From NCBI GenBank assembly GCA_029269725.1, contig JARJHS010000011.1, forward strand, positions 124,001 to 188,000: a stretch of DNA of 64,000 nucleotides. Reading direction: 5' to 3'. A program made the position numbers and the translations under genes. This DNA is from Pollutibacter soli (lineage in GTDB: Bacteria; Bacteroidota; Bacteroidia; Chitinophagales; Chitinophagaceae). Below are positions 1,837 through 56,680 of this stretch, piece by piece. The notes beneath the pieces are model-generated. The model was not told where the DNA came from. It did no database searches and worked only from the letters and a program-made list of their open reading frames with translations. Every line of letters begins with the position of its first letter. Positions within the stretch are counted from its first letter, which is position 1.

Positions 1837-1844
1837 TAAAGGTA
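1837..1844 (-). promoter_or_regulatory. -7-like box TACCTTTA, four bases before FtsX-permease ATG
   Basis: On the - strand TACCTTTA is followed by gcga and then ATG. It matches TAnnTTTG in 7 of 8 positions and has the same four-base spacing seen at thiolase, rlmN, trmD and oxyR, which predicts a leaderless transcript. Confidence 0.4.
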
Positions 1845-1851
1845 AATAAAC

Positions 1852-1882
1852 AAGTAAGAAGTAAGAAGTGAGAAGTAAGAAG
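1852..1882. repeat. AAGTAAGAAGT array (family C)
   Basis: Four to five copies of AAGTAAG/AAGTGAG lie just upstream of the permease gene. The 459-bp stretch 1833-2291 also contains a perfect 14-bp palindrome CTGCCGGCCGGCAG (1936-1949) and the family A material at 2195-2291, and no convincing ORF. Confidence 0.7.
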
Positions 1883-2194
1883 GGTTGAAATTTGATTTTG
1901 GCTGGCGAATAGCGGTGTTTTCGGGAGTTGTCAGTCTGCCGGCCGGCAGGCGTCGGTTCTCAGTAGTCAGGAACAGCCAGGCAACAGGCACCAGATATTG
2001 TCAAACCGGGTTGATTAATTGATATGTCCAAATGCCTTTAAGGGTTACAAACTTTGCTGCTTCCAATTTTCTCAAATAGACGAATTAAGTTTATAAACCC
2101 GATAAGAATTTGAATTAACTGAGATAATAGCGGAGATCTATTACTATTGCCAAAAACAGAAAAGAACAAGCAGAAACTGTTTGGCATTACATAG

Positions 2195-2291
2195 GCTGGC
2201 AGTTCCTATTGCCCTGCCTCGCGGCAGGCGGACTATTGCCTCATACCTATTGCCTATTGAATCGACGTCGCGAAGATCTCCTGCCTGCTGC
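2195..2291 (-). repeat. Family A array and CCTGCC/GGCAGG palindrome after nuoN
   Basis: On the - strand the nuoN TAG stop reads directly into GCAGCAGGCAGGAG. Further out, 2213-2228 is the hairpin CCTGCC-tcgc-GGCAGG followed by CGG, a form that recurs at 42808-42827 and, more weakly, at 1936-1949. Confidence 0.65.
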
Positions 2292-3665
2292 CTAGTTATC
2301 CAGCAGATGCAATAACCAATCCGGATGTACTCCCAGGATAATTACCAGTACCGCTGTCAGTACCAGTACTGTTTTGAAACCTTCTGACACCTGGATCCCC
2401 GGATCGGCACCTTCGCGGAAATACATGGCCTGGATGATCCGGAAATAATAATAGACACTGATGGCTGCACAGCAAACACCAATAATAACCAGCCAGAACA
2501 TAGCACCGTTTTTCATGGCCGCAACCAGCATATAGTATTTGGCAAAAAAGCCACCGGTGAGCGGAATGCCTGCAAGAGAAAATAAAAATACAGCCAGAAG
2601 AGCTGCAAGTAACGGCTGATGTTTGGCGAATCCATTAAAACCTTCGTAAGTATAATCCTTCATCCGCATAAGAACAGCGAAAATGCCGATCGTTGGCAGA
2701 CTATAAGCTGCTGTATAAAGTATCAGCCCTTGTTTCCCGATATTATTCAAAGCAAATATCGCCAGCAACATAAACCCAGCCTGGGCTATACTGGAATAAG
2801 CGAGCATTCTTTTTACGCTTTGCTGAAATACTGCAGTAATATTCCCGATGATCAATGTTGCAGCAGTTATCAGCGCCATGGCAAACTGCCACTCTGAATG
2901 CATCCTTCCAAAAGCGTTTTCGAACAACAAAAGAAAAGCAATGAAGAAAGCTGCTTTTACAATGGTTGCCATAAAGGAAGTAAATACGGTTGGAGAACCA
3001 TCATACACATCCGGGGTCCAGAAATGGAACGGTACAGCAGAAACTTTAAACCCAAGTGAAATCATCAGCAGAACAAGTCCTGCCATTTTCATTACGGTGA
3101 TATTTCCGAGACCGAGATACATTCCATCAGTATAAAAAGTACCGGTTGCTCCGTACAGCAATGCAATCCCCATCAGCATCAATCCCGTTGAGAAAGAGCC
3201 CATCAGGAAATATTTCAATGCTGCTTCATTACTCCTGAGGTTCTTTTTATCACTGCCTGCAAGAATATACAATGGAATTGAAATGATCTCGATGCCGATA
3301 AAAAGCATCAGCATTGTTTTGAATGCAGAAACTATAGCTATGCCTGTGAGAATAAAAAATATCAGTGCAAAATAATCAGCTGCATTTGCTCCTACTTCCT
3401 CAAGATCTTTGCCTGAAAGCAGAAAATACACCAATGTACAAACCAGTATGATCAGGTTGAATACAAGGCCGAAGCTGGTAAACTCCAGCATTCCTCTCGT
3501 ATCAATATTGAAGAAATTAACTCCCGCAAATTCCAGCCAGTTGGCGCCAATCAACGCCAGTATGCCGGCTGTGGCCACATAACGTGCAGTTGATTTGTTT
3601 TTTGACATTACCCCGGTATACATCATAATAACTCCGAGGATCGCCGATAAAATGATCACATTCAT
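2292..3665 (-). CDS. nuoN: NADH-quinone oxidoreductase subunit N
   Basis: A 457-aa antiporter-like membrane subunit of complex I with about 14 hydrophobic helices. It contains the proton-antiporter core with SLGFKVSAVPFHFWTPDVYDG (about 203-223) and the Lys-bearing KRMLAYSSIAQAG helix (about 283-295). Together with NuoL and NuoM it couples quinone reduction to proton translocation. It is the last gene of the nuo operon, 16 bases after nuoM. Its TAG stop is the first codon of a G-rich array. Confidence 0.97.
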   Translation of the reverse strand: MNVIILSAILGVIMMYTGVMSKNKSTARYVATAGILALIGANWLEFAGVNFFNIDTRGMLEFTSFGLVFNLIILVCTLVYFLLSGKDLEEVGANAADYFALIFFILTGIAIVSAFKTMLMLFIGIEIISIPLYILAGSDKKNLRSNEAALKYFLMGSFSTGLMLMGIALLYGATGTFYTDGMYLGLGNITVMKMAGLVLLMISLGFKVSAVPFHFWTPDVYDGSPTVFTSFMATIVKAAFFIAFLLLFENAFGRMHSEWQFAMALITAATLIIGNITAVFQQSVKRMLAYSSIAQAGFMLLAIFALNNIGKQGLILYTAAYSLPTIGIFAVLMRMKDYTYEGFNGFAKHQPLLAALLAVFLFSLAGIPLTGGFFAKYYMLVAAMKNGAMFWLVIIGVCCAAISVYYYFRIIQAMYFREGADPGIQVSEGFKTVLVLTAVLVIILGVHPDWLLHLLDN

Positions 3666-3681
3666 AAATTCCGTTCAATGT

Positions 3682-5151
3682 TTATTTGGCCGCAATACGG
3701 GATAATAATGTATCTGTACTACTCCTGATAAGATCAAACATAGGTGCCGGATAAACACCTACGATAAAAATCAAAACGACGATAACGGCCAGGACCAACC
3801 GCTGATTCAGGGTAATCTCCTGCACACGTTCCGAAATCGGGTTCATACTGCCGTAAAACACATTTTTGATCATGTTCAGCGTATAGATCGCTGCAAGGAT
3901 AATACTCAGTCCCGCAAATGCAGCAACATATTTACTGTATCCAAACAGGCCGTTAAACATGAGAAACTCTCCAACAAATGCATTGGTCAATGGAAGCGCA
4001 ATATTCGCCAGCGCGACAATCACCAGTAATATGGTAAGTACCGGGGCTTTCTGCGCGATCCCACCCAGTTGGGAAATTTTCCTGATTCCCAGTTGTTGTT
4101 CCAGCAGGCCGGCAACAATCCACAATCCAAGGATATTTACTCCGTGATTGAACATCTGAATAATCACTCCACTTACAGCAGCATGGTTCAGAGTGAAAAG
4201 AGCAGCACACATCAAACCAATATGCGCAATCGACGACCATGCGATCAACCGCTTTATATCATCCTGCACAATCGCGACGCAGGACGCATATATTATTCCC
4301 GTCACCGAAAGCCCGATGACAATGGAATCAAAATGTTTTACAGCAGAAGGGAACACCGGCAGCAACCAGCGAATCACGGCAAATACGCCCATTTTTACCA
4401 TCACTGCACTTAACACCATCGTGACAGCCGGTGGTGATTGTTCGTACACATCCGGTTGCCAGGTATGGAAAGGAAAAATCGGCATCTTGATCGCGAAGGC
4501 AATAAAGAATAACCAGAACAACCAGTTTTGTTCGTCCCCACTCAGTTTCACTTTATAAAAAGAAAGCATAGCGAATGACTGATCAGGTGTTTTCAGATAT
4601 ACATAGAGAATACCGATCAGCAGCAGCAAAGAACCTGCAAATGTGTAAATAAAGAATTTGAATGCGGCTTGTATCCTTCTTTCTCCTCCCCACTGTGATG
4701 CAAGAAAATAAGTGGGTATCAGCGCGAGTTCCCAGAAGAAATAAAACGCCATCGCATCAGTAGCCATGAACACACCCATCATACCGCATTGTGCCAGCAG
4801 CATCAATCCATGAAAACTATTGCTGTTACTGTATTTTGTATTCCAGGTAGCTGCAAAAATCAAAGGGAAGGCTATAGCATTCAACAACACCAGTGTTCTT
4901 GAAATTCCATCCAGCACAAATCCAAAACTTGCTCCGATATCAGTTAACCAGAAATATTTTACCTCATTGAGCATGTAGTGTTTCTGATCAGTATAGGTAA
5001 GACTTACTGCTACCAATGCTAGAGTGATAATAGAAGAAAATAAACTCCAGGTTTTTACATTCCTTTCATTCTTTATAAAAAAACAAAGAATGCCACCGAT
5101 CAGCGGCAGCCATAAAAGCAATGCGGGAAAATTATCAAATGCAGCTATCAT
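3682..5151 (-). CDS. nuoM: NADH-quinone oxidoreductase subunit M
   Basis: A 489-aa antiporter-like membrane subunit of complex I. The family signatures WELALIPTYFLASQWG, AFAIKMPIFPFHTWQPDVYE and DIKRLIAWSSIAHIG are present in order, including the glutamate and lysines of the proton channel. Length is normal for the family. It starts 15 bases after the nuoL stop, as expected of an operon. Confidence 0.97.
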   Translation of the reverse strand: MIAAFDNFPALLLWLPLIGGILCFFIKNERNVKTWSLFSSIITLALVAVSLTYTDQKHYMLNEVKYFWLTDIGASFGFVLDGISRTLVLLNAIAFPLIFAATWNTKYSNSNSFHGLMLLAQCGMMGVFMATDAMAFYFFWELALIPTYFLASQWGGERRIQAAFKFFIYTFAGSLLLLIGILYVYLKTPDQSFAMLSFYKVKLSGDEQNWLFWLFFIAFAIKMPIFPFHTWQPDVYEQSPPAVTMVLSAVMVKMGVFAVIRWLLPVFPSAVKHFDSIVIGLSVTGIIYASCVAIVQDDIKRLIAWSSIAHIGLMCAALFTLNHAAVSGVIIQMFNHGVNILGLWIVAGLLEQQLGIRKISQLGGIAQKAPVLTILLVIVALANIALPLTNAFVGEFLMFNGLFGYSKYVAAFAGLSIILAAIYTLNMIKNVFYGSMNPISERVQEITLNQRLVLAVIVVLIFIVGVYPAPMFDLIRSSTDTLLSRIAAK

Positions 5152-5166
5152 ATGCTATTACGGGCT

Positions 5167-7068
5167 TCAGGATTTCCAGAAAAACTGGATGATGAATAAT
5201 AAGATGGTTGCTGTAACCATGATTAAAATATAAGACCCTACCTGTCCGCTCTGGATCCAGCGCAGTTGTCTGCTGCTGTATTGAACCAGTCTCCCTACTC
5301 CATTTACAATTCCATCAATAAATATTTTATCAAACTTGCTCAGGAATGATGAAAAGCCGAGCAGCGGTCTGCTGATCACTGTGTCATAGATTTCATCTAC
5401 ATACCACTTGTTTTCGAGTACGCGTCCCAGTCCGGTAGCTTCTGCTGTGGTTTTCTGGTAGCGACTGAATTTATTCCAGGCAATGATAATAATCACGAGG
5501 ATGATGGCTGCAACACCAAACATCATCATATACTCCATCACATGACTGAGATGATGTTCTTCATGCATTTTTGCTGTGGATTGTGCGAAGACAGGCGCAA
5601 GATAATTTTCGAGTTGGTGACCGTTTTTCATCAGCACTTCCGGCACTCCGATAAATCCGCCAAATACAGAAAGTAAAGCCAGCACAACCAAAGGAATAGT
5701 CATAGCCGCCGGACTTTCATGCAGGTGATGTTCCTGATCATGTGTACCTCTGAATTTGCCAAGGAAAGTCATCGCGTACAATCTGAACATATAAAAAGCT
5801 GTCATCAATGCACCCAGAACACCCAGTACCCAAAACACCGGACTTTTCAAAAATGCAGCAGTCAGAATTTCATCTTTTGAAAAGAAACCCGATAACGGTG
5901 GAATACCGGCAATAGCAAGACATCCCAGCAAAAAAGTAATATGCGTAATGGGTAAATGTTTTTTCAGACCACCCATATTTCTGATATCCTGTTCGTGATG
6001 CATAGCATGAATAACACTACCAGCACCGAGGAAGAGAAGGGCTTTGAAAAAGGCGTGTGTCATTACGTGGAATACAGCGCCGGTGTATGCACCAACACCA
6101 AGGCCAAGGAACATATATCCCAACTGGCTGACAGTAGAATAAGCCAGTACTTTTTTAATATCGTTTTGCTTCAGCGCGATCGATGCTGCGAATAATGCAG
6201 TAGCTAATCCTGTGATAGCAACAACTGCCTGCGTAACAGGAGAGAGCGTGTACATGATGTTGCTACGTGCGATCATGTAGATACCCGCAGTCACCATCGT
6301 TGCAGCGTGTATCAGGGCAGATACAGGCGTAGGACCCGCCATCGCATCAGGCAACCAGGTGTACAAAGGAATCTGTGCAGATTTACCCATTGCTCCAACA
6401 AAAAGCAGCAAAGTAATTCCGGTAAGTATTTTCACCGGGGTTCCATCGGCACCGGCAAATACAACACTGAAATCAGTGGAACCGAACTGGCTGATCATCC
6501 AGAAAATACCTAGGAGAAAACCAAGGTCACCGATACGGTTCATCACAAAGGCTTTTTTTGCAGCCTTGTTGTAGTCATCATTCTTGAACCAGTATCCGAT
6601 CAGTAAATAAGAACAAAGGCCAACACCTTCCCAGCCCATAAACATGATCACGAAGTTGGCACCCAGTACCAGCAGCAACATCGAAAAAACAAAGAGGTTG
6701 AGATAAGCGAAATAGCGTGCGAAATGCGGTGGTGTTTCTTCATGCATATATGCTGAAGAATACAAATGAATCAGGAAACCAACGCCGGTGATGATCAGCA
6801 GGAATAATGCAGAAAGCTGATCCACCTGGAAGGCAAAAGATATTTTCAGTTTTGCAACGTCTATAAAATCAAACAGCGTCACGACCTGTGGAGCAAAGCC
6901 TGGAGCTTTCACTTCAAAAAAGATCATCAGGCTCACAATGAATGAAGCCAGGATGGTTCCCGAACCAATGATGGAAACAAGTGATTTGGAAAGATATTTT
7001 CTGCCGAGGCCATTTATTAAAAAGCCCAGCAGCGGAAAAAGAGGAACCAGGTATATGAGTTTACTCAT
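5167..7068 (-). CDS. nuoL: NADH-quinone oxidoreductase subunit L
   Basis: A 633-aa distal antiporter-like subunit of complex I, with the long C-terminal part that carries the lateral amphipathic helix. Signatures include GWEGVGLCSYLLIGYW, MGKSAQIPLYTWLPDAMAGP, ALIHAATMVTAGIY and NDIKKVLAYSTVSQLGYM. A histidine-rich loop (EEHHLSHVMEY) lies near residue 500. It follows nuoK by 58 bases, the widest gap within the L-M-N part. Confidence 0.97.
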   Translation of the reverse strand: MSKLIYLVPLFPLLGFLINGLGRKYLSKSLVSIIGSGTILASFIVSLMIFFEVKAPGFAPQVVTLFDFIDVAKLKISFAFQVDQLSALFLLIITGVGFLIHLYSSAYMHEETPPHFARYFAYLNLFVFSMLLLVLGANFVIMFMGWEGVGLCSYLLIGYWFKNDDYNKAAKKAFVMNRIGDLGFLLGIFWMISQFGSTDFSVVFAGADGTPVKILTGITLLLFVGAMGKSAQIPLYTWLPDAMAGPTPVSALIHAATMVTAGIYMIARSNIMYTLSPVTQAVVAITGLATALFAASIALKQNDIKKVLAYSTVSQLGYMFLGLGVGAYTGAVFHVMTHAFFKALLFLGAGSVIHAMHHEQDIRNMGGLKKHLPITHITFLLGCLAIAGIPPLSGFFSKDEILTAAFLKSPVFWVLGVLGALMTAFYMFRLYAMTFLGKFRGTHDQEHHLHESPAAMTIPLVVLALLSVFGGFIGVPEVLMKNGHQLENYLAPVFAQSTAKMHEEHHLSHVMEYMMMFGVAAIILVIIIIAWNKFSRYQKTTAEATGLGRVLENKWYVDEIYDTVISRPLLGFSSFLSKFDKIFIDGIVNGVGRLVQYSSRQLRWIQSGQVGSYILIMVTATILLFIIQFFWKS

Positions 7069-7126
7069 GACAGTCAGTATAGCTTTAATGCTGATTCCGA
7101 TTTTTTAATCGGAACAGTATACATCA

Positions 7127-7462: not shown

Positions 7463-7481
7463 AATTTATACTGATTGTATC

Positions 7482-7982: not shown

Positions 7983-7989
7983 TGGTCAG

Positions 7990-22366: not shown

Positions 22367-23563
22367 TTACATGGCATTTTCAAAAATCACTGCGGCTCCC
22401 TGTCCTACCCCAATACACATGGTGGCCAGGCCGTAGCGGATTTTTCGTTTTTTCATTTCGTGAAGTAAGGTTGTACTAATTCTCACACCTGAGCAACCCA
22501 ACGGATGTCCAATGGCTATCGCCCCGCCGTTGACATTGACAATTGAGGGATCAATACCAAGTTCCTGTATACATGCGAGAGACTGAGACGCAAATGCTTC
22601 ATTGAGCTCAACAAGACCGATATCGTTAATCTCCAGCCCGGCCCTTTTCAATGCTTTTCGTGTAGCCGGTACCGGGCCGATGCCCATTATTGATGGATCA
22701 ACACCTGCAACGGCCATCGAGACAATCCTTCCCAGCGGTGCAAGATTATTTTTTGTTATAAGATCTTCACTTGCCAATATTGCTGCGGCCGCGCCATCAT
22801 TAATTCCCGATGAGTTTCCCGCGGTAACACTCCCTTCTTTTGCAAAAGCCGGTTTTAAAACCGCTAATTTTTCCAGGGAAGTCTGACGAGGATGTTCGTC
22901 AGTATCAACCATTACTTCGTCTTTTTTTCCCGATATTTTTACCGGAACAAGTTCATCTTTCCACTTCCCTGCTGCTGCGGCAGCTGCATATTTTTCCTGG
23001 GATGAAAATGCAAACTGATCCTGCGCCTCTCTGGAAATCTTCCAGTGTTTCGCTATATTTTCTGCTGTTTCACCCATCGTAAAAGGGTAATATTTTGCCC
23101 TGAGAGCAGGGTTAATAAACCTCCAGCCGAGCGTGGTATCAAACAGATCTGTTTTTCGTCCAAATCCCTCTTCCTGTTTTCCCATTACAAAAGGCGCGCG
23201 GGACATGCTTTCCACTCCGCAACTGATGATCGCTTCACCATCACCCGCAGCAATGGCCCTCGCACCGTCCATGACAGCCTGTAATCCCGAAGCGCAAAGT
23301 CTGTTGACTGTAGTACCGGCAACCTCCAGCGGCAAACCTGCAAGTAAGGCCGCCATCCGGGCAACATTCCGGTTATCCTCACCTGATTGATTTGCCGCCC
23401 CTGCAATCACATCTTCAATCAGATGGACATCCATTTTTGGATTGCGCCGAAGGATGGCAACGATCATATCGGCGAGCAGATCATCCGGCCTTTTAGAACT
23501 CAACGAACCGCCATACCGGCCAATGGGGGAACGAAGCGCATCAACAACGAAGACAGGTTTCAT
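22367..23563 (-). CDS. Acetyl-CoA acyltransferase (thiolase)
   Basis: A 398-aa thiolase. The acyl-accepting Cys90 is in NRLCASGLQ, GGAIAIGHPLGCSG carries the catalytic His, and CIGVGQGAA the second Cys. Likely acts in fatty-acid beta-oxidation or degradation of aromatic compounds (the family that includes FadA and PcaF). It is divergent from rlmN with only 54 bases between start codons, and has a TATATTTG box four bases before its ATG. Confidence 0.93.
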   Translation of the reverse strand: MKPVFVVDALRSPIGRYGGSLSSKRPDDLLADMIVAILRRNPKMDVHLIEDVIAGAANQSGEDNRNVARMAALLAGLPLEVAGTTVNRLCASGLQAVMDGARAIAAGDGEAIISCGVESMSRAPFVMGKQEEGFGRKTDLFDTTLGWRFINPALRAKYYPFTMGETAENIAKHWKISREAQDQFAFSSQEKYAAAAAAGKWKDELVPVKISGKKDEVMVDTDEHPRQTSLEKLAVLKPAFAKEGSVTAGNSSGINDGAAAAILASEDLITKNNLAPLGRIVSMAVAGVDPSIMGIGPVPATRKALKRAGLEINDIGLVELNEAFASQSLACIQELGIDPSIVNVNGGAIAIGHPLGCSGVRISTTLLHEMKKRKIRYGLATMCIGVGQGAAVIFENAM

Positions 23564-23567
23564 CTTT

Positions 23568-23575
23568 CAAATATA
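23568..23575 (-). promoter_or_regulatory. -7 box TATATTTG, leaderless thiolase promoter
   Basis: On the - strand TATATTTG is followed by aaag and ATG. With the start site expected three to four bases after the box, the mRNA would begin at the start codon. Confidence 0.6.
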
Positions 23576-23605
23576 AGTCGCCCGGGCCAGCAACAGACGA
23601 TGCCG

Positions 23606-23613
23606 TATCTTTG
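23606..23613 (+). promoter_or_regulatory. -7 box TATCTTTG, leaderless rlmN promoter
   Basis: TATCTTTG, ccgg, ATG. The box faces the thiolase promoter 30 bases away, so the -33 regions of the two promoters overlap. Confidence 0.6.
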
Positions 23614-23617
23614 CCGG

Positions 23618-24682
23618 ATGAAAGTGGCGTCGATACGGAATATCAGGCAGTTAAACCCTGATGAACTGAAAACAGTATTCCAGGAAATGGGTGAGAAATC
23701 ATTCCGTGCACAACAGGTGTGGGAGTGGTTATGGCAAAAACATGCGTTCAGTTTCGAGGACATGACCAATCTTTCCAAGGACCTCCGGGCAAAACTGAAC
23801 GAAAATTTCAGCTTTCCCAGTTTAAAAATTGATGCGGTCCAGCAAAGCTCAGATGGAACGATAAAATCAAGATTTAAAACTTTTGATGGTCACCTGGTCG
23901 AAGGTGTTCTGATACCTTCGGACCAAAGATTCACAGCCTGTGTTTCTTCCCAGATCGGTTGCAGCCTGAGCTGCAAGTTTTGTGCGACGGGGTATATGGA
24001 GCGCAAGCGCAACCTGAATTTTGATGAGATCTACGACCAGGTAGTTCATATCAATCAGCAAAACATGAAGGTCAATGGTAAAAAACTGACCAATATTGTT
24101 TTTATGGGAATGGGCGAACCCCTGTTGAATTATAAAAATGTCCTTCAGGCCATTGAAAGAATTACCGCTGCTGACGGGCTGGCGATGAGCCCGAAAAGGA
24201 TCACGGTGTCTACAGCCGGTGTTGCGAAAATGATCAAACAGCTGGGGGATGATAATGTCAAATTCAAACTGGCATTATCGCTGCATGCGGCAAACGATAG
24301 GAAGAGAAACGAGATCATGCCGATCAACGAAACCAATGATCTCAGGTCGTTGATTGATGCACTCAATTATTTTTATAAGAAAACCGGAAATGAAATAACA
24401 CTGGAGTATATTCTTTTCAACCAGTTTAACGATAGCCAGGAAGATGCTGAAGAATTGATTAAAGCGTATCGCCAGATACCTGCCGACCTGGTCAACCTGA
24501 TCGAATACAACCCTATTGATTTCGCACGCTTCACAAAACCATCTGAGGAAAGAATTGAGTTTTTCATGCAATACCTTGGAAAAAACAGGGTCAATGCAAG
24601 ATTGAGACGCAGCCGTGGAAAGGATATTGATGCAGCATGCGGCCAGCTAGCCAATAAAGCAGGTGATGTAAAAACAGCTTAA
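23618..24682 (+). CDS. rlmN: 23S rRNA/tRNA adenine-C2 methyltransferase
   Basis: A 354-aa radical-SAM enzyme that methylates A2503 of 23S rRNA and A37 of some tRNAs. The radical-SAM motif is Cys115/119/122 (CSLSCKFC), and the mechanistic C-terminal Cys is at about 342 (AACGQLA). The start at 23618 is preferred: 354 aa fits the family, the -7 box sits directly before it, and the frame extension back to 23387 runs into the thiolase gene. Confidence 0.96.
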   Translation: MKVASIRNIRQLNPDELKTVFQEMGEKSFRAQQVWEWLWQKHAFSFEDMTNLSKDLRAKLNENFSFPSLKIDAVQQSSDGTIKSRFKTFDGHLVEGVLIPSDQRFTACVSSQIGCSLSCKFCATGYMERKRNLNFDEIYDQVVHINQQNMKVNGKKLTNIVFMGMGEPLLNYKNVLQAIERITAADGLAMSPKRITVSTAGVAKMIKQLGDDNVKFKLALSLHAANDRKRNEIMPINETNDLRSLIDALNYFYKKTGNEITLEYILFNQFNDSQEDAEELIKAYRQIPADLVNLIEYNPIDFARFTKPSEERIEFFMQYLGKNRVNARLRRSRGKDIDAACGQLANKAGDVKTA

Positions 24683-26498: not shown

Positions 26499-27146
26499 TT
26501 ACAGTTTTTGCGTACTACTTCCTTCCATTTTCCCATAAGTGATAAACACCAAAGCTGAAATGACCAGGCTTACAATCATCAGCACACAATTCAGTAGTAC
26601 TGTATTTAATCCGTTGATCGTTACATCAAGAAAGGGATAGGGATAAAAATGATCGATCGCGCCACAAGTCAAAGCAAACAGCAGGTACGCAAACGGAAAT
26701 ATCAACCATAAAAAAATATGCTTCCATTTCAGTGTCGATTTCGTGGTAAAAAACAACCAGTACATCAGAAACAGTACCGGCACAACCAGGTGAAGAAGTT
26801 CATCTGCCACGCGGTTGATGCCTTCCGGGTTCCAGATTTTTCTCAAGACTGTATGGTACACAATTGCACCGGCAGTAATATAAACCGCAATTGCAGTAAC
26901 AGCGGCGGGTTTTTTAAAAAATGATTTCATTCGATTGCTGCCGGGCATTAAAGAGATTGCGCAACAAACAGCGATAACAAGATTGATCCAGATGGTGAAA
27001 TAGCTAAAGTAACGTGTGATCGCTTCCGTCAGGTCTTTACCTGATGTATAAATTGACAAATAAAATTGTAGCCCCAGGGCAAACCATGCAGTGATTGCCG
27101 TGATTAAAAGAATGGTCCTTTCAGCTCCAGGCTGCTGAATCCTCAT
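26499..27146 (-). CDS. Pr6Pr-type multi-pass membrane protein
   Basis: A 215-aa protein with six hydrophobic helices. Conserved-looking features are TRYFSYFTIWINLVIAVC near residue 42, HTVLRKIWNPEG and DELLHLVVPVLFLMYWL near 105-130, and ALTCGAIDHFYPYPFLD near 160-175, which match the Pr6Pr (FAR-17a/AIG1-like) family. The biochemical role is unknown. A TATTTTTC box sits four bases before the ATG. It is convergent with the RluA-like gene. Confidence 0.8.
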   Translation of the reverse strand: MRIQQPGAERTILLITAITAWFALGLQFYLSIYTSGKDLTEAITRYFSYFTIWINLVIAVCCAISLMPGSNRMKSFFKKPAAVTAIAVYITAGAIVYHTVLRKIWNPEGINRVADELLHLVVPVLFLMYWLFFTTKSTLKWKHIFLWLIFPFAYLLFALTCGAIDHFYPYPFLDVTINGLNTVLLNCVLMIVSLVISALVFITYGKMEGSSTQKL

Positions 27147-27150
27147 AAAC

Positions 27151-27158
27151 GAAAAATA
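27151..27158 (-). promoter_or_regulatory. -7-like box TATTTTTC, four bases before Pr6Pr ATG
   Basis: TATTTTTC, gttt, ATG on the - strand; 7 of 8 matches to TAnnTTTG with the leaderless spacing. Confidence 0.4.
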
Positions 27159-29008: not shown

Positions 29009-30154
29009 CTAGAAACTTCCGCCGCTTCCTACGGCATCCCTGCCAAACCGGTCCTTAACATCATCAATAGCTTTATACAGTCCGGCCTTGCGTGCGGGAT
29101 CGCTGAAAAGATTGGTTTGCAGAGCCTCGCGGGTGAGTTCACTGACCCGGACGCCTAAAAGTCGAATTTTTTCACCTTTACGATAAAGCTGGTGAAACAA
29201 AGTCTTTGCTACAGGAATAAGTTCGTCATCAAAAAAAGTATAGGGGATCGAGGATTGTTTTGACGTCGTTTCAAAATCCGGATACCTGATTTTTACTGCC
29301 AGACAGCCAGCCATCTTATCATCATTGCGAAGATTGAAGGCGACTTTTTCTGTCATCTTTACCAGCTGGCTCATCAGGAATTCCATGTCATTGGTATTTT
29401 CTTCGAAAGTGTTTTCGTTGGAAATTGATTTAGATTCATGATAGGCATGCACTTCACTGTGGTGTTGACCCTGTGCGCGATGCCATAAATCGACGGCATA
29501 ATTTCCCACTGTTTTTTCTAAAACTTCCAGCGGATAAGAGGCGAGGTCACCAATGGTTGAAAAACCAAGCGCATGCAGATTTTTCAGCGTGTGCTCACCA
29601 ACGCCCATAAAACGACTGAGTGGTAACGGTGCAAGAAATTCCTTTTCTCTTCCCGGCAACACCTGCAAATAACCATTTGGCTTCGCTTCATTTGTAGCCA
29701 TTTTTGCGATCATTTTATTCGACGCAAGGCCAAATGATATAGGAAGTTTGGTTTTCTCCATGATCTCTTCACGTAATTCTATTGTCCATTTCAAAGGCTG
29801 AAAAAACCTATCCATTCCCGTTATATCAACATAAAACTCATCGATAGAAGCCTTTTCAAATAGTGGTGCTTTTGCAGCAATAATTTCTGTCACCATTCTT
29901 GAATAATGACTATACCTGTCACGCGAGCCCTGCAACAATATGGCTTGCGGACAAAGCTGCATGGCCTTTTTCATGGGCATGGCTGATGCAACTCCAAATT
30001 TCCTTGCCTCATAACTGCAGGTCGTTACAACACCACGATCGCGGCTGCCTCCCACAATCAACGGTTTTCCGCGAAGCGATGGATCTTTTAGGATCTCCAC
30101 TTCCACAAAAAATGCATCGAGGTCGAAATGAGCGATATATCGTTGCTTCTCCAA
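29009..30154 (-). CDS. dinB: DNA polymerase IV
   Basis: A 381-aa Y-family translesion polymerase. The catalytic carboxylates are in HFDLDAFFVEVE (near residue 10) and KASIDEFYVDITG (near 102), followed by the helix-hairpin-helix GVGEHTLKNLHALGFSTIGDLA and the little-finger domain. The frame begins with TTG at 30154; a TAAATTTG box lies five bases before it, which supports that start as leaderless, though an internal start cannot be excluded. Confidence 0.93.
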   Translation of the reverse strand: MEKQRYIAHFDLDAFFVEVEILKDPSLRGKPLIVGGSRDRGVVTTCSYEARKFGVASAMPMKKAMQLCPQAILLQGSRDRYSHYSRMVTEIIAAKAPLFEKASIDEFYVDITGMDRFFQPLKWTIELREEIMEKTKLPISFGLASNKMIAKMATNEAKPNGYLQVLPGREKEFLAPLPLSRFMGVGEHTLKNLHALGFSTIGDLASYPLEVLEKTVGNYAVDLWHRAQGQHHSEVHAYHESKSISNENTFEENTNDMEFLMSQLVKMTEKVAFNLRNDDKMAGCLAVKIRYPDFETTSKQSSIPYTFFDDELIPVAKTLFHQLYRKGEKIRLLGVRVSELTREALQTNLFSDPARKAGLYKAIDDVKDRFGRDAVGSGGSF

Positions 30155-30159: not shown

Positions 30160-30179
30160 CAAATTTACAGATTTCTGTA
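30160..30179 (-). promoter_or_regulatory. dinB -7 box with overlapping palindrome
   Basis: The -7 box TAAATTTG is 30160-30167 (- strand), and TACAG-attt-CTGTA at 30166-30179 is an inverted repeat that overlaps its upstream end. The palindrome could be an operator for a damage-response repressor; this is inference. Confidence 0.4.
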
Positions 30180-43418: not shown

Positions 43419-43426
43419 TATCTTTG
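43419..43426 (+). promoter_or_regulatory. -7 box TATCTTTG, leaderless trmD promoter
   Basis: TATCTTTG, atcc, ATG. Exact consensus with four-base spacing. Confidence 0.6.
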
Positions 43427-43430: not shown

Positions 43431-44111
43431 ATGCACATTCACATTCTTACCGTTTTGCCCGAATTACTGGAAAGTCCGTTTAACCATTCCATTCTCAAAC
43501 GTGCGAAGGACAAAGGCCTGCTGGAAATTTCGGTGCATCATCTCCGCCGCTGGGCAGTAAATGAATATGGCCAGGTGGATGACTACCAGTTTGGCGGCGG
43601 CGCAGGTATGGTCATTATGTGTGAGCCATTAGTAAAAGCGATTGAGGAATTATCTGCCGATAAAATATTTGATGAGATTATTTTCTTAACGCCTGATGGA
43701 GAAAGACTCTCACAGCCAATCGCAAATCAACTTTCACTGAGGGAAAATATACTGATGATCTGTGGTCACTACAAAGGCATCGATCAGCGGGTACGGGATC
43801 ATTTTGTAACACGTGAAATTTCTATAGGGGACTATGTATTAAGTGGAGGAGAACTCGCTGCGGCCGTATTGGTTGATGCCATCGGCAGATTGTTACCAGG
43901 TGTTCTGAATGATGAAACATCTGCTTTGTTCGATTCCTTCCAGGATAATCTTTTGGCTCCGCCCGTATATACGCGCCCGGAAGTATATCGCGACTGGAAA
44001 GTGCCGGAAATATTGCTGAGTGGCGATCACAAAAAAATAAATGAATGGCGCTATGAAGAAGCTGTAAAGAGAACGCAGGAACGGCGTCCCGATATTATTA
44101 AAGATGAATAA
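43431..44111 (+). CDS. trmD: tRNA (guanine-N1)-methyltransferase
   Basis: A 226-aa SPOUT methyltransferase that makes m1G37 in tRNA and prevents frameshifting. The trefoil-knot SAM site is MICGHYKGIDQRVRDHFVTREISIGDYVLSGGE, and DDYQFGGGAGMVI is the conserved N-terminal loop. In many bacteria it sits with rimM and rpsP; here it is about 12 kb away from them. Confidence 0.97.
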   Translation: MHIHILTVLPELLESPFNHSILKRAKDKGLLEISVHHLRRWAVNEYGQVDDYQFGGGAGMVIMCEPLVKAIEELSADKIFDEIIFLTPDGERLSQPIANQLSLRENILMICGHYKGIDQRVRDHFVTREISIGDYVLSGGELAAAVLVDAIGRLLPGVLNDETSALFDSFQDNLLAPPVYTRPEVYRDWKVPEILLSGDHKKINEWRYEEAVKRTQERRPDIIKDE

Positions 44112-44113: not shown

Positions 44114-45418
44114 CTATCTGAACAATCTTCGGCGAAGATTTTTATTGGTTCTCCAGAAACTAAATTCATTTCTCAGATCTTCGAGGTCCTTTATCACCTG
44201 CGGTTTTGCATTACGAAGGAAAAGATATCGGGCATGTGCGGTAAAAATTTTGAACGCTTCCCACCATTGGATGGCAAGGTAGATCGTCAGCGGTGATAAC
44301 AATACGGCGATAAAAAACCACCATTGCTGTACAAATGCAGAAACGATCAATAAAAGAATAAACCAGATATCAAACAGCATTCCACCCAAAACACAGCTTA
44401 CGCTGGTATACCAATCGATTCTTTTTACTTTTTTATCTGCAATGTATTTCGCAAGTAACACCGGAACTATTCCTGTTGCTGCACCGCAAAGTGTTACGGG
44501 TAACCCCAGGATCAATCCAAAAAAATGGAAGAAAATAGAATGATAGCGATGGATAATTGATCTGTCATTCAACCGCAGGTTACTCAGTTTATGTGTGTAT
44601 CTGAAAACACTTTCAGTAACGTCGCTGGCAGTATCATCATCCATTTCACTAACGTCATCGGCTATGCTTTTTTCTTCCCTGATCACGAGGTCTTTTTTCC
44701 GGTAATCCGACCGATGAATAGCATCGTTCCTGAAATATTCAAGGAGTTGATTGATGAGGTCCGTACGTTCAGCCTGGTCGACATATAAAACTGTATTACT
44801 GAATTTTTCCTGCAGCTCGCGTGTAAGTACATTGATGGCTTTTGCAGGATTTTCTTCATACATGGTTTTATAATCAGCTATCGCTGTGCTGTCGCCAACG
44901 GAAACCACCACGCTTGCACGAAAACGATGAAAGCTGTAATTGATCCCCACAGGAATTACTTCGAGGCCGATATCAAAGCCATGTGTTGAAACCGTATGGA
45001 AGGCAATCCTTGCAGTTCCTTTTTTCAGCGGGAGTAATATCCTTTCGCGGCGGCTGATGCCCTCAGGAAAAATCATCAGGATTTTTTTCTGCCTTAATAC
45101 CTCTTCACCTTCAGCAAATGTCTCCATATTCCTGCTGAGATCTTCTTTGCTGTGTTCCGCATTGTATATAGGGATCATGTGTACGCCTTTCATATACTTT
45201 TTTGCGCGGGGTTTAAATACGTCACTGCGTGCAAGAAAATACATTGGCCTCCTGATGAGAAGACCTACTACGATGGCGTCCAGAAATGAAGCAGAGTGAT
45301 TGGCGATCAGTATTACCGGCTTGTTTTTGGGAATATGTTCCGCTCCGGAAATAACCATCCTGCGGAAAAAAACCTGTGTTGCCGGCCACATGATCGCCTT
45401 GGCCAGGAAATACAACAT
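44114..45418 (-). CDS. PlsC-like 1-acyl-sn-glycerol-3-phosphate acyltransferase
   Basis: A 434-aa membrane acyltransferase. The catalytic histidine motif is ANHSASFLDA, i.e. H-x5-D instead of the classical H-x4-D, followed by FPEGISRRERILLPLKKGTARIAF (the FPEG motif). The C-terminal half has three or four hydrophobic helices (about 310-400). It acylates lysophospholipid or a related lipid. The frame is open to 45490, but the start at 45418 (MLYFLAK) is preferred because a TATCTTGG box sits four bases before it. Confidence 0.85.
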   Translation of the reverse strand: MLYFLAKAIMWPATQVFFRRMVISGAEHIPKNKPVILIANHSASFLDAIVVGLLIRRPMYFLARSDVFKPRAKKYMKGVHMIPIYNAEHSKEDLSRNMETFAEGEEVLRQKKILMIFPEGISRRERILLPLKKGTARIAFHTVSTHGFDIGLEVIPVGINYSFHRFRASVVVSVGDSTAIADYKTMYEENPAKAINVLTRELQEKFSNTVLYVDQAERTDLINQLLEYFRNDAIHRSDYRKKDLVIREEKSIADDVSEMDDDTASDVTESVFRYTHKLSNLRLNDRSIIHRYHSIFFHFFGLILGLPVTLCGAATGIVPVLLAKYIADKKVKRIDWYTSVSCVLGGMLFDIWFILLLIVSAFVQQWWFFIAVLLSPLTIYLAIQWWEAFKIFTAHARYLFLRNAKPQVIKDLEDLRNEFSFWRTNKNLRRRLFR

Positions 45419-45422: not shown

Positions 45423-45430
45423 CCAAGATA
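45423..45430 (-). promoter_or_regulatory. -7-like box TATCTTGG, four bases before the PlsC-like ATG
   Basis: TATCTTGG, gttt, ATG on the - strand, 7 of 8 matches. It decides the start at 45418 if real. Confidence 0.4.
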
Positions 45431-50309: not shown

Positions 50310-50313
50310 TAAT

Positions 50314-50415: not shown

Positions 50416-50442
50416 GTTTGTTTCTTTCCGGGTTCAGGTTTG

Positions 50443-50700: not shown

Positions 50701-50734
50701 TTTATTGGTGATATTTTTAGGGCAGCTTAGAAAA

Positions 50735-51761: not shown

Positions 51762-52559
51762 CTAGTATTGCAAAATATCGCGTATAAAATTATGATATTC
51801 AGGGAAGGACGGAAGGTTATTATGTCCGCCACCATGGATACGTATCAGCGTAATTTTTCCAGGATTGAGCTGCTGCAAACGAATACTATTTTTTAACGGA
51901 ATCAATCGGTCTTTTGTACCATGTATAATGTATATCGGACAGGTGACTGATTGGATCCATTTGTCTGTGCGAAGATGATATCTCAGCACAAATCTCACCG
52001 GCAGAATCGGTAAAAACCGTTCAACGACTTTTGAGAAACTGTAGTAAGGCGCATCAAGTATTAAATATCGCGGATGATTATCTGAAGCCAGTTTTGCTGC
52101 AAATCCACTTCCGATACTTCTGCCATAAAGTATCAGGTGTTTCTCCGGATACTTCGATTTAAGATCATTGTAGATAAACTGCATGTCATTCAGCATGCCT
52201 TCCTCCGATCGCTTTCCTGTACTTTTTCCAAAACCACGATAATCCACAAGAACCACATCATAATTGTATCGATAGAAATCTCCGGAATACTTGGCCCAGC
52301 CTTTTATACTGCGGGTGTTTCCATGAAAATATAAAACGAGTCCGGCAGGATTTTCCCTGTGGAAATGTAATCCGTTTATTTTCACACCTGGTTCAATATC
52401 AAAAAACAATTCGCTGAAAGGAGCATCGTATTTAAACTGGAAATCCTGGGCAAGTTTTTCGGGCTTAAAGATCAGTTTCTCCTGGATAAAATAAGCAACC
52501 GCGAGAACGAGCAGGTAGCCGCCAAGTATATACCACCAGCTGACCAGGAGAAAAATCAT
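51762..52559 (-). CDS. Membrane-anchored alpha/beta hydrolase (Bem46-like), copy 2
   Basis: A 265-aa protein with an N-terminal helix (about 3-25) and the same motif series as copy 1: YFHGNTRSIKGW, GFGKSTGKRS, YGRSIGSGFAAK (Ser near 148), IHGTKDRLIPL and GGGHNNLPSF. Divergence between the copies is high in the lid region, so the substrates may differ. It is divergent from xseA with 93 bases between starts. Confidence 0.85.
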   Translation of the reverse strand: MIFLLVSWWYILGGYLLVLAVAYFIQEKLIFKPEKLAQDFQFKYDAPFSELFFDIEPGVKINGLHFHRENPAGLVLYFHGNTRSIKGWAKYSGDFYRYNYDVVLVDYRGFGKSTGKRSEEGMLNDMQFIYNDLKSKYPEKHLILYGRSIGSGFAAKLASDNHPRYLILDAPYYSFSKVVERFLPILPVRFVLRYHLRTDKWIQSVTCPIYIIHGTKDRLIPLKNSIRLQQLNPGKITLIRIHGGGHNNLPSFPEYHNFIRDILQY

Positions 52560-52640
52560 ATTCAGGAAATTAAAAAAAAATCGCGATAAGCTGATCTCTG
52601 TATCAGATTAACACTAAACATTTAAAAAGAAATTTTCAGC

Positions 52641-52648
52641 TATCTTCC
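52641..52648 (+). promoter_or_regulatory. Weak -7-like box TATCTTCC, four bases before xseA ATG
   Basis: TATCTTCC, gcac, ATG; 6 of 8 matches to TAnnTTTG but the same four-base spacing as other leaderless candidates. Confidence 0.3.
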
Positions 52649-52652
52649 GCAC

Positions 52653-54125
52653 ATGGCTGATCAGTCACAGGAGAGGAAAATATTTACGTTGCTGGACGTA
52701 AGCAAAAGTATTCAGCAAACGCTGGCGGGCAGGTATGGTTCTGCATTCTGGGTGAAAGCAGAAATGAATAAACTCAATTACTATCCTCATTCAGGCCATT
52801 GCTACCCGGAACTGGTGGAGAAATCAGGAGGAAAGATTACGGCGCAGATGAAAGCAAATTTGTGGAAGGATGATTATCTGAGAGCAGATCAGAAATTCCG
52901 CGCAACACTGAAAGAGCCTTTGAAAGACGGAATAAAAATTCTGTTCCTCGCGAAAATCAGTTTTAACCCGGTTCATGGATTAGCATTACAGATTCTTGAA
53001 ATTGATCCCGCATTTACACTTGGAGATCTTGAAAAAGAAAAACAGGAATCTATTGACAGGTTGAAGCAGGAAGGTGTTTTTAGTTTGAACAAATTTATTC
53101 CTCTGGCACTGCTTCCGCAAAGGATTGCAATTATCTCCGTGGAAAGCAGCAAAGGATATGCGGATTTCATCGATGTGATTAGTAAAAATCCATGGAAATA
53201 TCGATTCTTCCATATGTTGTTTCCGGCGGTACTTCAGGGCGACAAAGCTGCAGCGGAGATAACAGCTCAGCTTAACCGAATCCGGAAAGTTATTGCGCAT
53301 TTTGATGTTGTAGCCATCATCCGGGGAGGCGGTGGAGATATCGGGCTGTCCTGCTACAACAATTATACGCTTGCCCAAACCATATGCACATTTCCGGCAC
53401 CGGTGATTACGGGCATAGGTCATTCCACAAATGAGACTGTCGCCGAGTTGGTTTCATTTCAGAATGCCATCACCCCCACGAAACTGGCCGAATACCTGAT
53501 TCAGCAGTTTCATGATTTTTCAGTTCCGGTACAGGAAGCGGAAGCGAGGATTATTGAATTTGCGGAGAGTATTATTGCTGAAAACAAATACGCGCTCCTG
53601 TCAACAGTAAAATTATTCAGATCGGTTACTGAAAATATCTTACTACGAAACAAAAACTTCGCTGATCAGATCGGAACTGCTGTGCAGAAACAAATCAGTT
53701 TTCGCTTTCATCATGAACGAGCCCGTCTGAATAATCTTAAATTTTCTTTGACAAGAAGTTCAGCAGAGGCCATCGGTGCAGGAAGAATGAATCTAAAAAA
53801 TTCCGGTAGAATATTACAGAAAGATAGTGTCATGTCAATAAAAGCAAAGAAGCAGGAAGTTGAACAATTCGCCGATCAACTCCGGCAGCAGGTGAGTCAA
53901 CAGATTAGTTATTCCCTGCTGAGGATTGATTCCATTGAGAAGAATGTTAGAAATTTGAGTCCGGAGAATGTCCTTCGCCGTGGATACAGCATTACTCGAT
54001 CAAAGGGAAAACTGGTCCGGAATGCGGAAGATGTAAATCCGGGAGATCACTTGAGTACAACTCTTTACTCCGGTAATGTGACAAGTATTGCAGAATCAAT
54101 AGAAAAATTAAAAAAAGATGAGTGA
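52653..54125 (+). CDS. xseA: Exodeoxyribonuclease VII large subunit
   Basis: A 490-aa nuclease subunit. The N-terminal OB fold (about 10-110; FTLLDVSKSIQQTLAGRYGSAFWVKAEM) is followed by the catalytic core with AIIRGGGGDIGLSCYNNYTLAQTI and TGIGHSTNETVAELV, then a long coiled-coil region and a final NVLRRGYSITR domain. It degrades single-stranded DNA in both directions with XseB. Overlaps xseB by eight bases. Confidence 0.95.
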   Translation: MADQSQERKIFTLLDVSKSIQQTLAGRYGSAFWVKAEMNKLNYYPHSGHCYPELVEKSGGKITAQMKANLWKDDYLRADQKFRATLKEPLKDGIKILFLAKISFNPVHGLALQILEIDPAFTLGDLEKEKQESIDRLKQEGVFSLNKFIPLALLPQRIAIISVESSKGYADFIDVISKNPWKYRFFHMLFPAVLQGDKAAAEITAQLNRIRKVIAHFDVVAIIRGGGGDIGLSCYNNYTLAQTICTFPAPVITGIGHSTNETVAELVSFQNAITPTKLAEYLIQQFHDFSVPVQEAEARIIEFAESIIAENKYALLSTVKLFRSVTENILLRNKNFADQIGTAVQKQISFRFHHERARLNNLKFSLTRSSAEAIGAGRMNLKNSGRILQKDSVMSIKAKKQEVEQFADQLRQQVSQQISYSLLRIDSIEKNVRNLSPENVLRRGYSITRSKGKLVRNAEDVNPGDHLSTTLYSGNVTSIAESIEKLKKDE

Positions 54126-54324
54126 GAAGATCAGTTATACAGAAGCGTTTGAAGAATTACAGCAAATTGTAACCGAGATCGAGGAAGGAGAAATTTCTGT
54201 TGATGCACTTTCGGAAAAAGTAAAGCGTGCAGCATTCCTTATCAATATATGCAAAACAAAACTCAGTTCGACGGAAGAAGATGTAAACAGGATTCTGAAA
54301 GAACTGGAAAACGGAGAGGCGTAA
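54118..54324 (+). CDS. xseB: Exodeoxyribonuclease VII small subunit
   Basis: A 68-aa helical subunit (SYTEAFEELQQIVTEIEEGEISVDALSEKVKRAAFLI), normal for the family. Its ATG lies inside the end of xseA, so translation is coupled. Confidence 0.93.
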   Translation: MSEKISYTEAFEELQQIVTEIEEGEISVDALSEKVKRAAFLINICKTKLSSTEEDVNRILKELENGEA

Positions 54325-54455
54325 TACAGGAGTTCTGATATCACTGTTTATGTCCAGCCAATCAAAAAAACTACATCCTGCTCAGGAAACCAATTTTGTA
54401 AAATCACATTTTTATAAATTAGTGACGGTGTTTGCATTTGGCACCGGGTAATAAA

Positions 54456-55211
54456 ATGATCAGTAACGGGAGCGATTCTTTACTTTATCCTTTCTGGAAC
54501 AGGCTTTTTTCTTTTAACTGGAAATTCAGCCTCGGATTGGCACTACTTATTTGTATTCCGCGGTTTTTCCTCGTGTTGCAGGCCAATGAAATTGGCAACT
54601 ACAACGCAATTGGAATTATCATGGTGCTATCTGCGCTTACGCCTTTCCTGTTTCTTACGCGTAATGGCCGAAGGGAAGCGGGTATCGTGAGTACAAAAAG
54701 ATGGTCGGTATTATTATCCGCGTTTGCCGCTGGTCTCGGCTTTGCAGTCATTCTTCATTTTTCGGGAATGCTATTGTATGGAAATACAGAAAGCAACTGG
54801 TACAATTATATCGGCAGGTCTTATCGTTTACCGGAAAATACAAATGATACGGATAAGCTGGTGATGTTCGCCATATTTGCGATTACAGGAATGAGTTTTA
54901 GTCCTGTCGGCGAAGAATTTTTCTTTCGCGCGATTGTACATACAGGTTTTGCAAAATCGATGAATGAAAAGAAAGCGTCTGTTATCGACAGTCTCCTTTT
55001 TGCATTCACCCATCTTGCGCATTTTGGAATTGTCTTTATAAATGAGCGCTGGCACTTTCTTTTTGTACCTGCACTGATATGGGTTGGAGCGATGTATTTA
55101 GTCAGCAGAATTTTCTTCTATTTTAAAGAAAAAGCAACTTCCATCTGGGGAACAGTTATTTGTCATGCAGGATTTAACCTTGGAATGATCGGAGCGATTT
55201 TTTACTTGTAA
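54456..55211 (+). CDS. CPBP family intramembrane metalloprotease
   Basis: A 251-aa protein with about seven hydrophobic helices. The active-site motifs are EEFFFRAI (EExxxR) near residue 153, FTHLAHFG (FxxxH) near 187 and HAGFNL near 240. The family includes CAAX-processing and bacteriocin-immunity proteins; the role here is not known. The start at 54456 (MISNGS) is chosen; an upstream TTG at 54432 is possible but overlaps a TGCATTTG -7-like box. Confidence 0.85.
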   Translation: MISNGSDSLLYPFWNRLFSFNWKFSLGLALLICIPRFFLVLQANEIGNYNAIGIIMVLSALTPFLFLTRNGRREAGIVSTKRWSVLLSAFAAGLGFAVILHFSGMLLYGNTESNWYNYIGRSYRLPENTNDTDKLVMFAIFAITGMSFSPVGEEFFFRAIVHTGFAKSMNEKKASVIDSLLFAFTHLAHFGIVFINERWHFLFVPALIWVGAMYLVSRIFFYFKEKATSIWGTVICHAGFNLGMIGAIFYL

Positions 55212-55312
55212 ATCTCCAGCAATTGAACAGATGAACTGGTTATTTCGCTTCATCGTTTTCGTAACTTCCTGACAGCAGTATTCCAATTTTCAATTTAATC
55301 TTTTAATGAATT

Positions 55313-55684
55313 ATGATAGCCAAAATCATCAGCGGCATTTTAATACTCATCACCGCTTACCTGAATATTAAACATGGATGGGCTGGTTTGTCCGGTAAAA
55401 TGAGTGCGGAGGAAATAAAAATGATGACAGATCTTGGAATCAGCAAACCAGTGCTCACCGGAGTTTCAATACTTGCGATTGTATCCGCAATACTCACACT
55501 GGTACCGAAAACATTTTTTGTCGGGAATATTCTCAATGCATTCGGGATACTCATTGTGATGTCTTTCGCGCTCAGAGCCGGCAATTACAAAACTGCATTC
55601 ATGGAAATTCCTTTTTTACTGATTCCCTTAGTACTAATATACCTGGGACATCCATTGAAATCCGAAAAATATTTTGCGAAATAG
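55313..55684 (+). CDS. DoxX-like small membrane protein
   Basis: A 123-aa protein with four hydrophobic helices (about 3-20, 48-66, 70-88, 97-113). The pattern resembles the DoxX-like family of small integral membrane proteins. It stands alone between the CPBP gene and oxyR. Function unknown. Confidence 0.7.
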   Translation: MIAKIISGILILITAYLNIKHGWAGLSGKMSAEEIKMMTDLGISKPVLTGVSILAIVSAILTLVPKTFFVGNILNAFGILIVMSFALRAGNYKTAFMEIPFLLIPLVLIYLGHPLKSEKYFAK

Positions 55685-55732
55685 TTTCTTTATGGCTGCT
55701 GCTGATCGGTAAAGGTGTAATCCGTTGCATCT

Positions 55733-56668
55733 TTACAATGGAATTACATTCTTGCTCTTGTTATCCTTTACAGAATCGGGAACTGCTGCAATAATTTCTT
55801 CCTGCAAAGCTTTTATCAGTTGCTTTTTCATAAAGTCGCGATGCGTAACCATACTCACTTCGCGCATCGGGGCAGGCGATTTAAAATGCCTGATCTGCTT
55901 CTGCTGTTTAGAACCCATATCCAGGGTAGTGAGTTCAGGTAAAATCGTGATCCCATCATTCAGATCAACCATCCTTCTTAAAGTTTCAATACTACCGGCT
56001 TCATATTCAAAATGGCTGCCACTTTCAGAAGCTTTTCTCAATTCACAAAGGTTTACGATCTGTGAGCGAAAGCAATGTCCTTCCTCCATCAGCCATAATT
56101 TTTCCGGATCGATGTCCTGTGCCAGCACATATGTTTTTTCATAAGCTGCATTTTTCCTCGATACGTAGGCCACAAGTTCTTCATAAAACAAAGGCTGTTC
56201 GCGAATTCCTTTTTCCTGTAAAGGCGTAACCAGCAAACCTACATCGATCCTCCCTTCGCGAAGACGCTGTACAATAAACTCCGTCATCATCTCATTTACG
56301 ATGAGCTTTACCTCAGGAAACTTAGCGTTAAAACTTTTCAGAAACAACGGAAGTAAATATGGCGCGAGAGTTGGAATGATTCCGATCCTTAGCTCTCCTG
56401 CGAGAATACCTTTCCGGATCTGAACCAGTTCAGTTATCTTACTTTTTTCCGCGAGTACTTTTTTTGCCTGTTCAATTATTTCCCGTCCGCCCTCAGTAGG
56501 TATTACAGGCTGTTTGCTGCGATCAAAAATTTTGATGCCCAACTCCTCTTCGAGCTTCTGAATCTGCATACTCAGCGTAGGCTGAGTAACAAAACAGCGC
56601 GAAGCCGCAGTAGCAAAATGGCGGCAATTGTCTACAGCAACAACATACTCGAGTTGTGTCAGTGTCAT
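55733..56668 (-). CDS. oxyR: Hydrogen-peroxide sensor, LysR-type regulator OxyR
   Basis: A 311-aa regulator. The winged helix-turn-helix is residues about 1-60 (FATAASRCFVTQPTLSMQIQKLEEELG), and the redox pair is Cys199 and Cys208 in EEGHCFRSQIVNLCELR, the same numbering as in E. coli OxyR. Peroxide would form the disulfide and activate defence genes; candidate targets here are the peroxiredoxin gene and its own. It has a TAACTTTG box four bases before its ATG and an OxyR-type site just upstream. Confidence 0.94.
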   Translation of the reverse strand: MTLTQLEYVVAVDNCRHFATAASRCFVTQPTLSMQIQKLEEELGIKIFDRSKQPVIPTEGGREIIEQAKKVLAEKSKITELVQIRKGILAGELRIGIIPTLAPYLLPLFLKSFNAKFPEVKLIVNEMMTEFIVQRLREGRIDVGLLVTPLQEKGIREQPLFYEELVAYVSRKNAAYEKTYVLAQDIDPEKLWLMEEGHCFRSQIVNLCELRKASESGSHFEYEAGSIETLRRMVDLNDGITILPELTTLDMGSKQQKQIRHFKSPAPMREVSMVTHRDFMKKQLIKALQEEIIAAVPDSVKDNKSKNVIPL

Positions 56669-56672
56669 GCTG

Positions 56673-56680
56673 CAAAGTTA
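56673..56680 (-). promoter_or_regulatory. -7 box TAACTTTG, leaderless oxyR promoter
   Basis: TAACTTTG, cagc, ATG on the - strand; exact consensus with four-base spacing. Confidence 0.6.

Follow-up and report, generated by a model that had tools for sequence, protein, structure and literature searches.

Promoter-like boxes in the window

The 64,000-nucleotide (nt) stretch of the Pollutibacter soli genome analysed here (contig JARJHS010000011.1, positions 124,001 to 188,000; hereafter the window) carries a series of genes that are preceded by a box resembling the -7 promoter element TAnnTTTG, placed exactly four bases before the start codon (spacing 4; Table 1). A preliminary description of the window had listed eight such boxes and had read them as promoters of leaderless mRNAs. 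All eight were confirmed at the positions given in Table 1, on the strand of their own gene and 4 nt 5' of an ATG. Boxes were scored by the six fixed letters of TAnnTTTG, as exact (6/6), one-off (5/6) or two-off (4/6). The four boxes that had been called exact, those of thiolase, rlmN, trmD and a gene named oxyR, are exact, while for the last gene Pfam backs membership of the LysR family alone. The near matches at the FtsX-type permease, the open reading frame (ORF) called Pr6Pr and the PlsC-like gene agree in 5/6 fixed letters; that of xseA, which had been listed with them, is weak (4/6) and unsupported in relatives. The exact box five bases ahead of the TTG start of the ORF labelled dinB was found as described. 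With four exact boxes at spacing 4 among 56 called genes, against about 0.04 at the shuffled rate, the window is enriched even relative to its own genome.

Table 1. Genes of the window with a TAnnTTTG-like box shortly before the start codon
Gene or ORF	Gene position	Strand	Box	Box position	Match	Distance to start codon	Annotation and remarks
MacB/FtsX-type permease	561-1832	-	TACCTTTA	1837..1844	one-off	4 nt 5' of ATG	Pfam
Thiolase	22367-23563	-	TATATTTG	23568..23575	exact	4 nt 5' of ATG	thiolase by Pfam
rlmN	23618-24682	+	TATCTTTG	23606..23613	exact	4 nt 5' of ATG	RlmN by Pfam
215-amino-acid ORF (called Pr6Pr in the preliminary description)	26499-27146	-	TATTTTTC	27151..27158	one-off	4 nt 5' of ATG	no Pfam match at E 0.001
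ORF called dinB in the preliminary description	29009-30154	-	TAAATTTG	30160..30167	exact	5 nt 5' of TTG	
trmD	43431-44111	+	TATCTTTG	43419..43426	exact	4 nt 5' of ATG	TrmD by Pfam
PlsC-like acyltransferase	44114-45418 (gene caller)	-	TATCTTGG	45423..45430	one-off	4 nt 5' of an ATG	Acyltransferase by Pfam; open frame extends to 45490, past the called start
xseA	52653-54125	+	TATCTTCC	52641..52648	two-off	4 nt 5' of ATG	XseA by Pfam; doubtful
LysR-family regulator (called oxyR in the preliminary description)	55733-56668	-	TAACTTTG	56673..56680	exact	4 nt 5' of ATG	LysR by Pfam

Boxes at gene starts across the genome

The genome comprises 6.12 megabases (Mb) in 37 contigs. A sample of 2.0 Mb, taken together with the window (2.06 Mb), yielded 1582 called genes, the starts of which came from a home-made coding-potential caller that is blind to the box. 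At these starts the exact box occurred 0, 0, 0, 5, 22, 7, 4, 3, 2, 5 and 3 times at spacings 0 to 10, respectively. The 22 boxes at spacing 4 compare with a mean of 1.1 and a maximum of 5 in 200 dinucleotide shuffles of the upstream 50 bases, and the far-upstream background amounts to some 1.4-1.5 exact boxes per spacing. A frequency equal to that of shuffled sequence had been named beforehand as speaking against a class of such genes; at gene starts the observed frequency lies far above it. The same box is hardly ever found at spacing 4 before internal ATGs (0 of 11972 in frame and 2 of 24341 out of frame), and six complemented, reversed or permuted motifs occur 0-2 times at this spacing. All 22 genes start with ATG, but so do 1460 of the 1582 genes overall. 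A second, broad hump of exact boxes lies at spacings of about 15-32 and fits leadered promoters.

Variants of the box behave differently from one another. Among the one-letter variants TAnnTTTA, the box type of the window permease (11 at spacing 4 vs 1.1 far upstream), and TAnnTTTC, the type found at the ORF called Pr6Pr (5 vs 0.8), peak at spacing 4, and TAnnTTTT (3) does not; TAnnTTGG, the type of the PlsC-like gene, is rare and has no clear excess there (1 vs 0.16). Taken together, one-off boxes at spacing 4 number 37 against about 13 expected. For two-off boxes the corresponding figures are 144 and about 82, and the picture is less clean because spacings 3, 5 and 6 are raised as well (102, 125 and 106). 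From the excess we estimate that about 1.3% of the genes have an exact box at spacing 4, and about 3% an exact or one-off box.

Genomic context and upstream base signals

The 22 genes are unevenly distributed over genomic contexts: 13 of the 516 genes with a divergent neighbour have an exact box at spacing 4, as compared to 6 of the 607 tandem genes more than 60 base pairs (bp) apart and 3 of the 457 tandem genes at most 60 bp apart (divergent vs close tandem, Fisher p 0.024). Such a distribution is easier to reconcile with a promoter than with a translation signal. The fixed distance to the start codon is nevertheless what a translation signal would have, and the box could thus be imagined as a ribosome signal within the RNA of transcripts that begin further upstream. 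Such a signal would be most needed in tight tandem genes, where the box is absent (0 of the 238 tandem genes at most 20 bp apart), although the upstream gene also constrains such sites; moreover, the hump at 15-32 consists of the same motif, in which G hardly occurs at the free positions. We therefore consider a ribosome signal very improbable.

The 22 sites agree with the TAHHTTTG consensus (PMC6847099), their two free positions being G in 5% and 0% of cases. Leadered genes (n = 103) show an A-rich stretch at -10 to -13 (41, 62, 52 and 52% A). In the 22 leaderless-type genes A stands at 18% at -13 to -15, and C reaches 77% at -4 and 59% at -1; since the box dictates positions -12 and -11, these are not comparable between the two sets. 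At -13 the leader signal is thus missing from the leaderless-type genes (18% vs 52% A).

Genes that keep spacing 4 in relatives

The spacing was then compared at orthologous loci. The table of spacings on which this comparison partly draws takes the best of several start codons times four spacings, without a shuffle, and its yardsticks are mnmG and thiolase, for which it shows no box in 22 and 27 of 30 loci, respectively. A match to rlmN was obtained in 38 of 40 genomes, from which 30 loci (own included) were taken: 22 have an exact box at spacing 4, three a one-off box at 4, two a box at 5, one at 6 and two none. A further 29 loci, the best matches from 87 of 90 genomes of the class, comprise 12 with an exact box at 4 (9 before ATG, 3 before GTG), one with a one-off box at 4 (GTG), three with an exact box at 5 (two of them TTG), two with a box at 6 and 11 with none. 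The three genes with an exact box 4 nt 5' of GTG rather than ATG are those of L275, L284 and L293.

For trmD, the best named matches of which belong to Chitinophagaceae or Chitinophagales (75-80% identity), an exact box occurs at spacing 4 in 24 of 80 relatives' loci and at 5 in three; in ten others the box at 4 is one-off, and 38 lack a 5- or 6-match box at spacings 3-6. Where trmD has a TAHHTTTG box at spacing 4 (22 cases), 16 different spacers follow it. The 80 named trmD loci yielded 584 called genes in all. Among these, 34 boxes stand at spacing 4, or 11 if trmD is excluded, where the background is about 0.35; further peaks at 22, 53 and 59 arise mostly because the same leadered genes recur in closely related species of Chitinophaga.

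Three tRNA synthetase genes were followed in 20 relatives each, mostly the best of 40 (gltX), 34 (pheS) and 38 (serS) matching genomes out of 40, all or nearly all of one genus. The exact box of gltX stands at spacing 4 in 19 of 20 relatives, the remaining one having a one-off box at 5. For pheS the spacing is 4 in 18 of 20 (2 exact, 16 one-off), with one one-off box at 8 and one relative without a box. Before the leadered control serS, 18 of the 20 relatives have an exact box, at spacings 13 (1), 14 (4), 15 (8), 16 (2) and 17 (3). The near-constant length in gltX, rlmN and pheS, as against 13-17 in serS in largely the same genomes, is what a spacing constraint predicts, as judged against one matched leadered control. 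The joint shift of box and start in rlmN and gltX carries less weight, because indels in the coding region would leave both in place.

It is possible, though on balance doubtful, that TAHHTTTG-N4-ATG as a whole is a unit under selection, such that the leaderless state itself would be maintained for rlmN, gltX and pheS (and partly for trmD) in Chitinophagaceae-type bacteria, the length of the spacer being fixed while its letters drift. The reason for such maintenance would perhaps be that leaderless translation ties output to the state of the ribosome or of the initiation factors.

Some details of these loci are recorded here as well. The thiolase gene and rlmN are divergent, with start codons 54 bp apart (23564-23617) and exact boxes at spacing 4 on both sides; this divergent pair is kept in two genomes (G015 and G022), where rlmN has an exact box at 4 and the box of thiolase is exact (G022) or one-off (G015). 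In 14 of the 20 relatives (L370, L372, L374, L375 and L377-L386) the box of pheS at spacing 4 is TATCTTCG, a one-off match, as compared to TATCTTTG in the genome of the window; TATCTTCG is a conserved variant -7 box, the strength of which is perhaps tuned. Many serS leaders (L390-L409) have an A-rich stretch, e.g. CAAAAATT, directly after the box. Elsewhere in the genome of the window (L118:1032-2279) a second MacB/FtsX-type permease gene has the exact box TACATTTG at spacing 4, the box of the window permease being one-off. A gene with an N-terminus similar to that of the dinB-labelled ORF (L035) has an exact box 4 nt 5' of ATG. The genome of the window (G000) measures 6.1 Mb, as compared to 1.4-4.1 Mb for 24 genomes listed under the same genus (G001-G024), several of which are incomplete.

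Proposed leaderless promoters and competing explanations

We propose that the boxes would serve housekeeping promoters (sigma-ABfr type) as their -7 elements, positioned such that RNA polymerase would start on the A of the start codon. The resulting mRNAs would be leaderless, would carry an AUG at their very 5' end and would be translated in the absence of a leader signal. In general, leaderless mRNAs are initiated on their 5'-terminal AUG, which is the basis of the proposed ribosome step. The position of the start is inferred from transcription start site maps of Flavobacterium (PMC6847099, PMC9723704), in which the box lies at -12 to -5 and the start 4-5 nt after the box; combined with a published box-to-start distance of 4, the N4 spacer would put +1 on the A of the ATG. 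With a spacing equal to the published distance and an excess over shuffled sequence, the leaderless interpretation of the preliminary description appears well founded by analogy, and the boxes are very probably housekeeping promoters giving leaderless mRNAs that start on the A of the ATG.

Several observations weigh against this interpretation. Over the whole genome the raw pattern TAnnTTTG-N4-ATG was counted at 103 sites, close to the 88 of the reversed pattern. This count would suit chance matches in AT-rich upstream DNA, as would the commonness of two-off boxes like that of xseA (about 82 expected per spacing). We dropped it as a poor test because many of the sites are not at gene starts. 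When 88 of the 103 sites were looked at, 22 of the 36 in the 2.06-Mb sample coincided with called starts, and 18 of 52 further sites elsewhere scored highest among the starts of their frame, another 4 lying within 60 bases of such a start. The 22 exact boxes at called starts, against 1.1 in shuffles, together with the conservation in relatives leave chance with a next to negligible probability; for the set of exact boxes it is refuted, and individual genes, xseA in particular, may still owe their box to chance.

A second group of such observations comes from the comparison of loci. The arrangement is labile in mnmG: 4 of its 30 loci (own included) have the box at spacing 4, and in the others it lies at 5-38 or is missing. 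An exact box at 4 precedes thiolase in 2 of 30 loci (own included; the other is L242) and a one-off box in one (L243), many of these loci being paralogues of 40-50% identity. For the LysR-type gene it is found in 1 of 8 loci (own included, hence in 0 of 7 relatives), with a one-off box in L212 and boxes at 18 and 22 in two relatives. The exact leaderless-type promoters of the LysR-type gene and of thiolase are thus lost in most of the relatives compared. As to xseA, one of 10 distant relatives (L236) has an exact box at 4, ahead of a shifted start.

Leadered neighbours of trmD in Chitinophaga, which we take to be ffh, rplS and rpsP from their N-termini, also keep their spacing, at 22 or 53, with nearly identical leader letters, and we accordingly rejected a conserved spacing by itself as a special mark. 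These three genes proved unusable as matched controls (ffh and rplS were found in 0 of 25 and rpsP in 1 of 25 loci with trmD at 4-5), so that serS is the single matched leadered control. Finally, the upstream base frequencies of the leadered set contain no clear -33 element and no base preference at the start site, and the leaderless state is read here from DNA rather than from RNA 5' ends. The -33 element (TTTG) is described as weak in Flavobacterium johnsoniae (PMC6847099).

It could also be that the box is a promoter alongside others further upstream, the leaderless form being minor and most of the protein coming from leadered RNA. Read-through can reach tandem genes, and 9 of the 22 sites precede such genes; the other 13, however, face a divergent neighbour, and the fixed length of the spacer in gltX, pheS and rlmN would be odd for an unimportant start. 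We regard this explanation as improbable and retain the leaderless promoters as the preferred reading.

Functions of the genes concerned

For a comparison of functions, 44 leaderless-type genes (the 22 of the sample and 22 from further sites, four of the latter with a box only near the called start) were set against 38 leadered controls. For the latter, 73 leadered candidates were shuffled and the first 40 taken, two of these 40 being left out. Six of the first 22 genes encode tRNA/rRNA modification enzymes and tRNA synthetases, which suggested a functional regulon; this was rejected, since the enrichment is gone in the larger set (translation and RNA genes: 8/44 vs 6/38, or 7/38 if an ABC-F-like ATPase is counted). 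Transcription regulators make up 6/44 of the leaderless-type and 1/38 of the leadered genes.

Relation to known systems and meaning

Leaderless mRNAs were reported to constitute 5.5% in Flavobacterium psychrophilum (PMC9723704), mRNAs with a 5' untranslated region shorter than 10 nt 3.7% in Bacteroides thetaiotaomicron (PMC7366714), and those with a leader of at most 10 nt at most 13% in F. johnsoniae (PMC6847099). These start-site maps concern the same phylum and the same box and likewise find a minority of mRNAs, our estimate of about 3% being of like order; they were measured from RNA, unlike the present DNA-based assignment, and the parts consulted give no account of a constant distance between box and ATG, nor of its retention gene by gene. 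Zheng and others (2011; PMC3160421) predicted leaderless genes by the same logic, from a promoter core at a fixed short distance 5' of the start codon, theirs being a Pribnow-type TA-like signal and ours TAnnTTTG; of 37 Bacteroidetes/Chlorobi genomes they reported one to have leaderless genes, and they acknowledged a possible underestimate for Bacteroidetes. The upstream base bias of Bacteroidetes has been attributed, as a suggestion, to leaderless mRNA and/or S1 (PMC5397173). The preliminary description needs amending in that leaderless mRNAs of Bacteroidota were already reported as a minority (PMC7366714, PMC9723704, PMC6847099); a class of genes with a fixed box-to-ATG spacing, or its conservation per gene, was not found described in a literature search that covered few subscription papers and no supplements.

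If the boxes do mark leaderless mRNAs, this state would be readable from DNA and would supply predicted start codons for genome annotation. Shine-Dalgarno signals are mostly absent from Bacteroidota, and the way in which the ribosomes of this phylum choose a start codon is still under study. Genes such as mnmG would allow leaderless and leadered orthologues to be compared as natural pairs, alongside a number of housekeeping genes that seem to retain the leaderless form.

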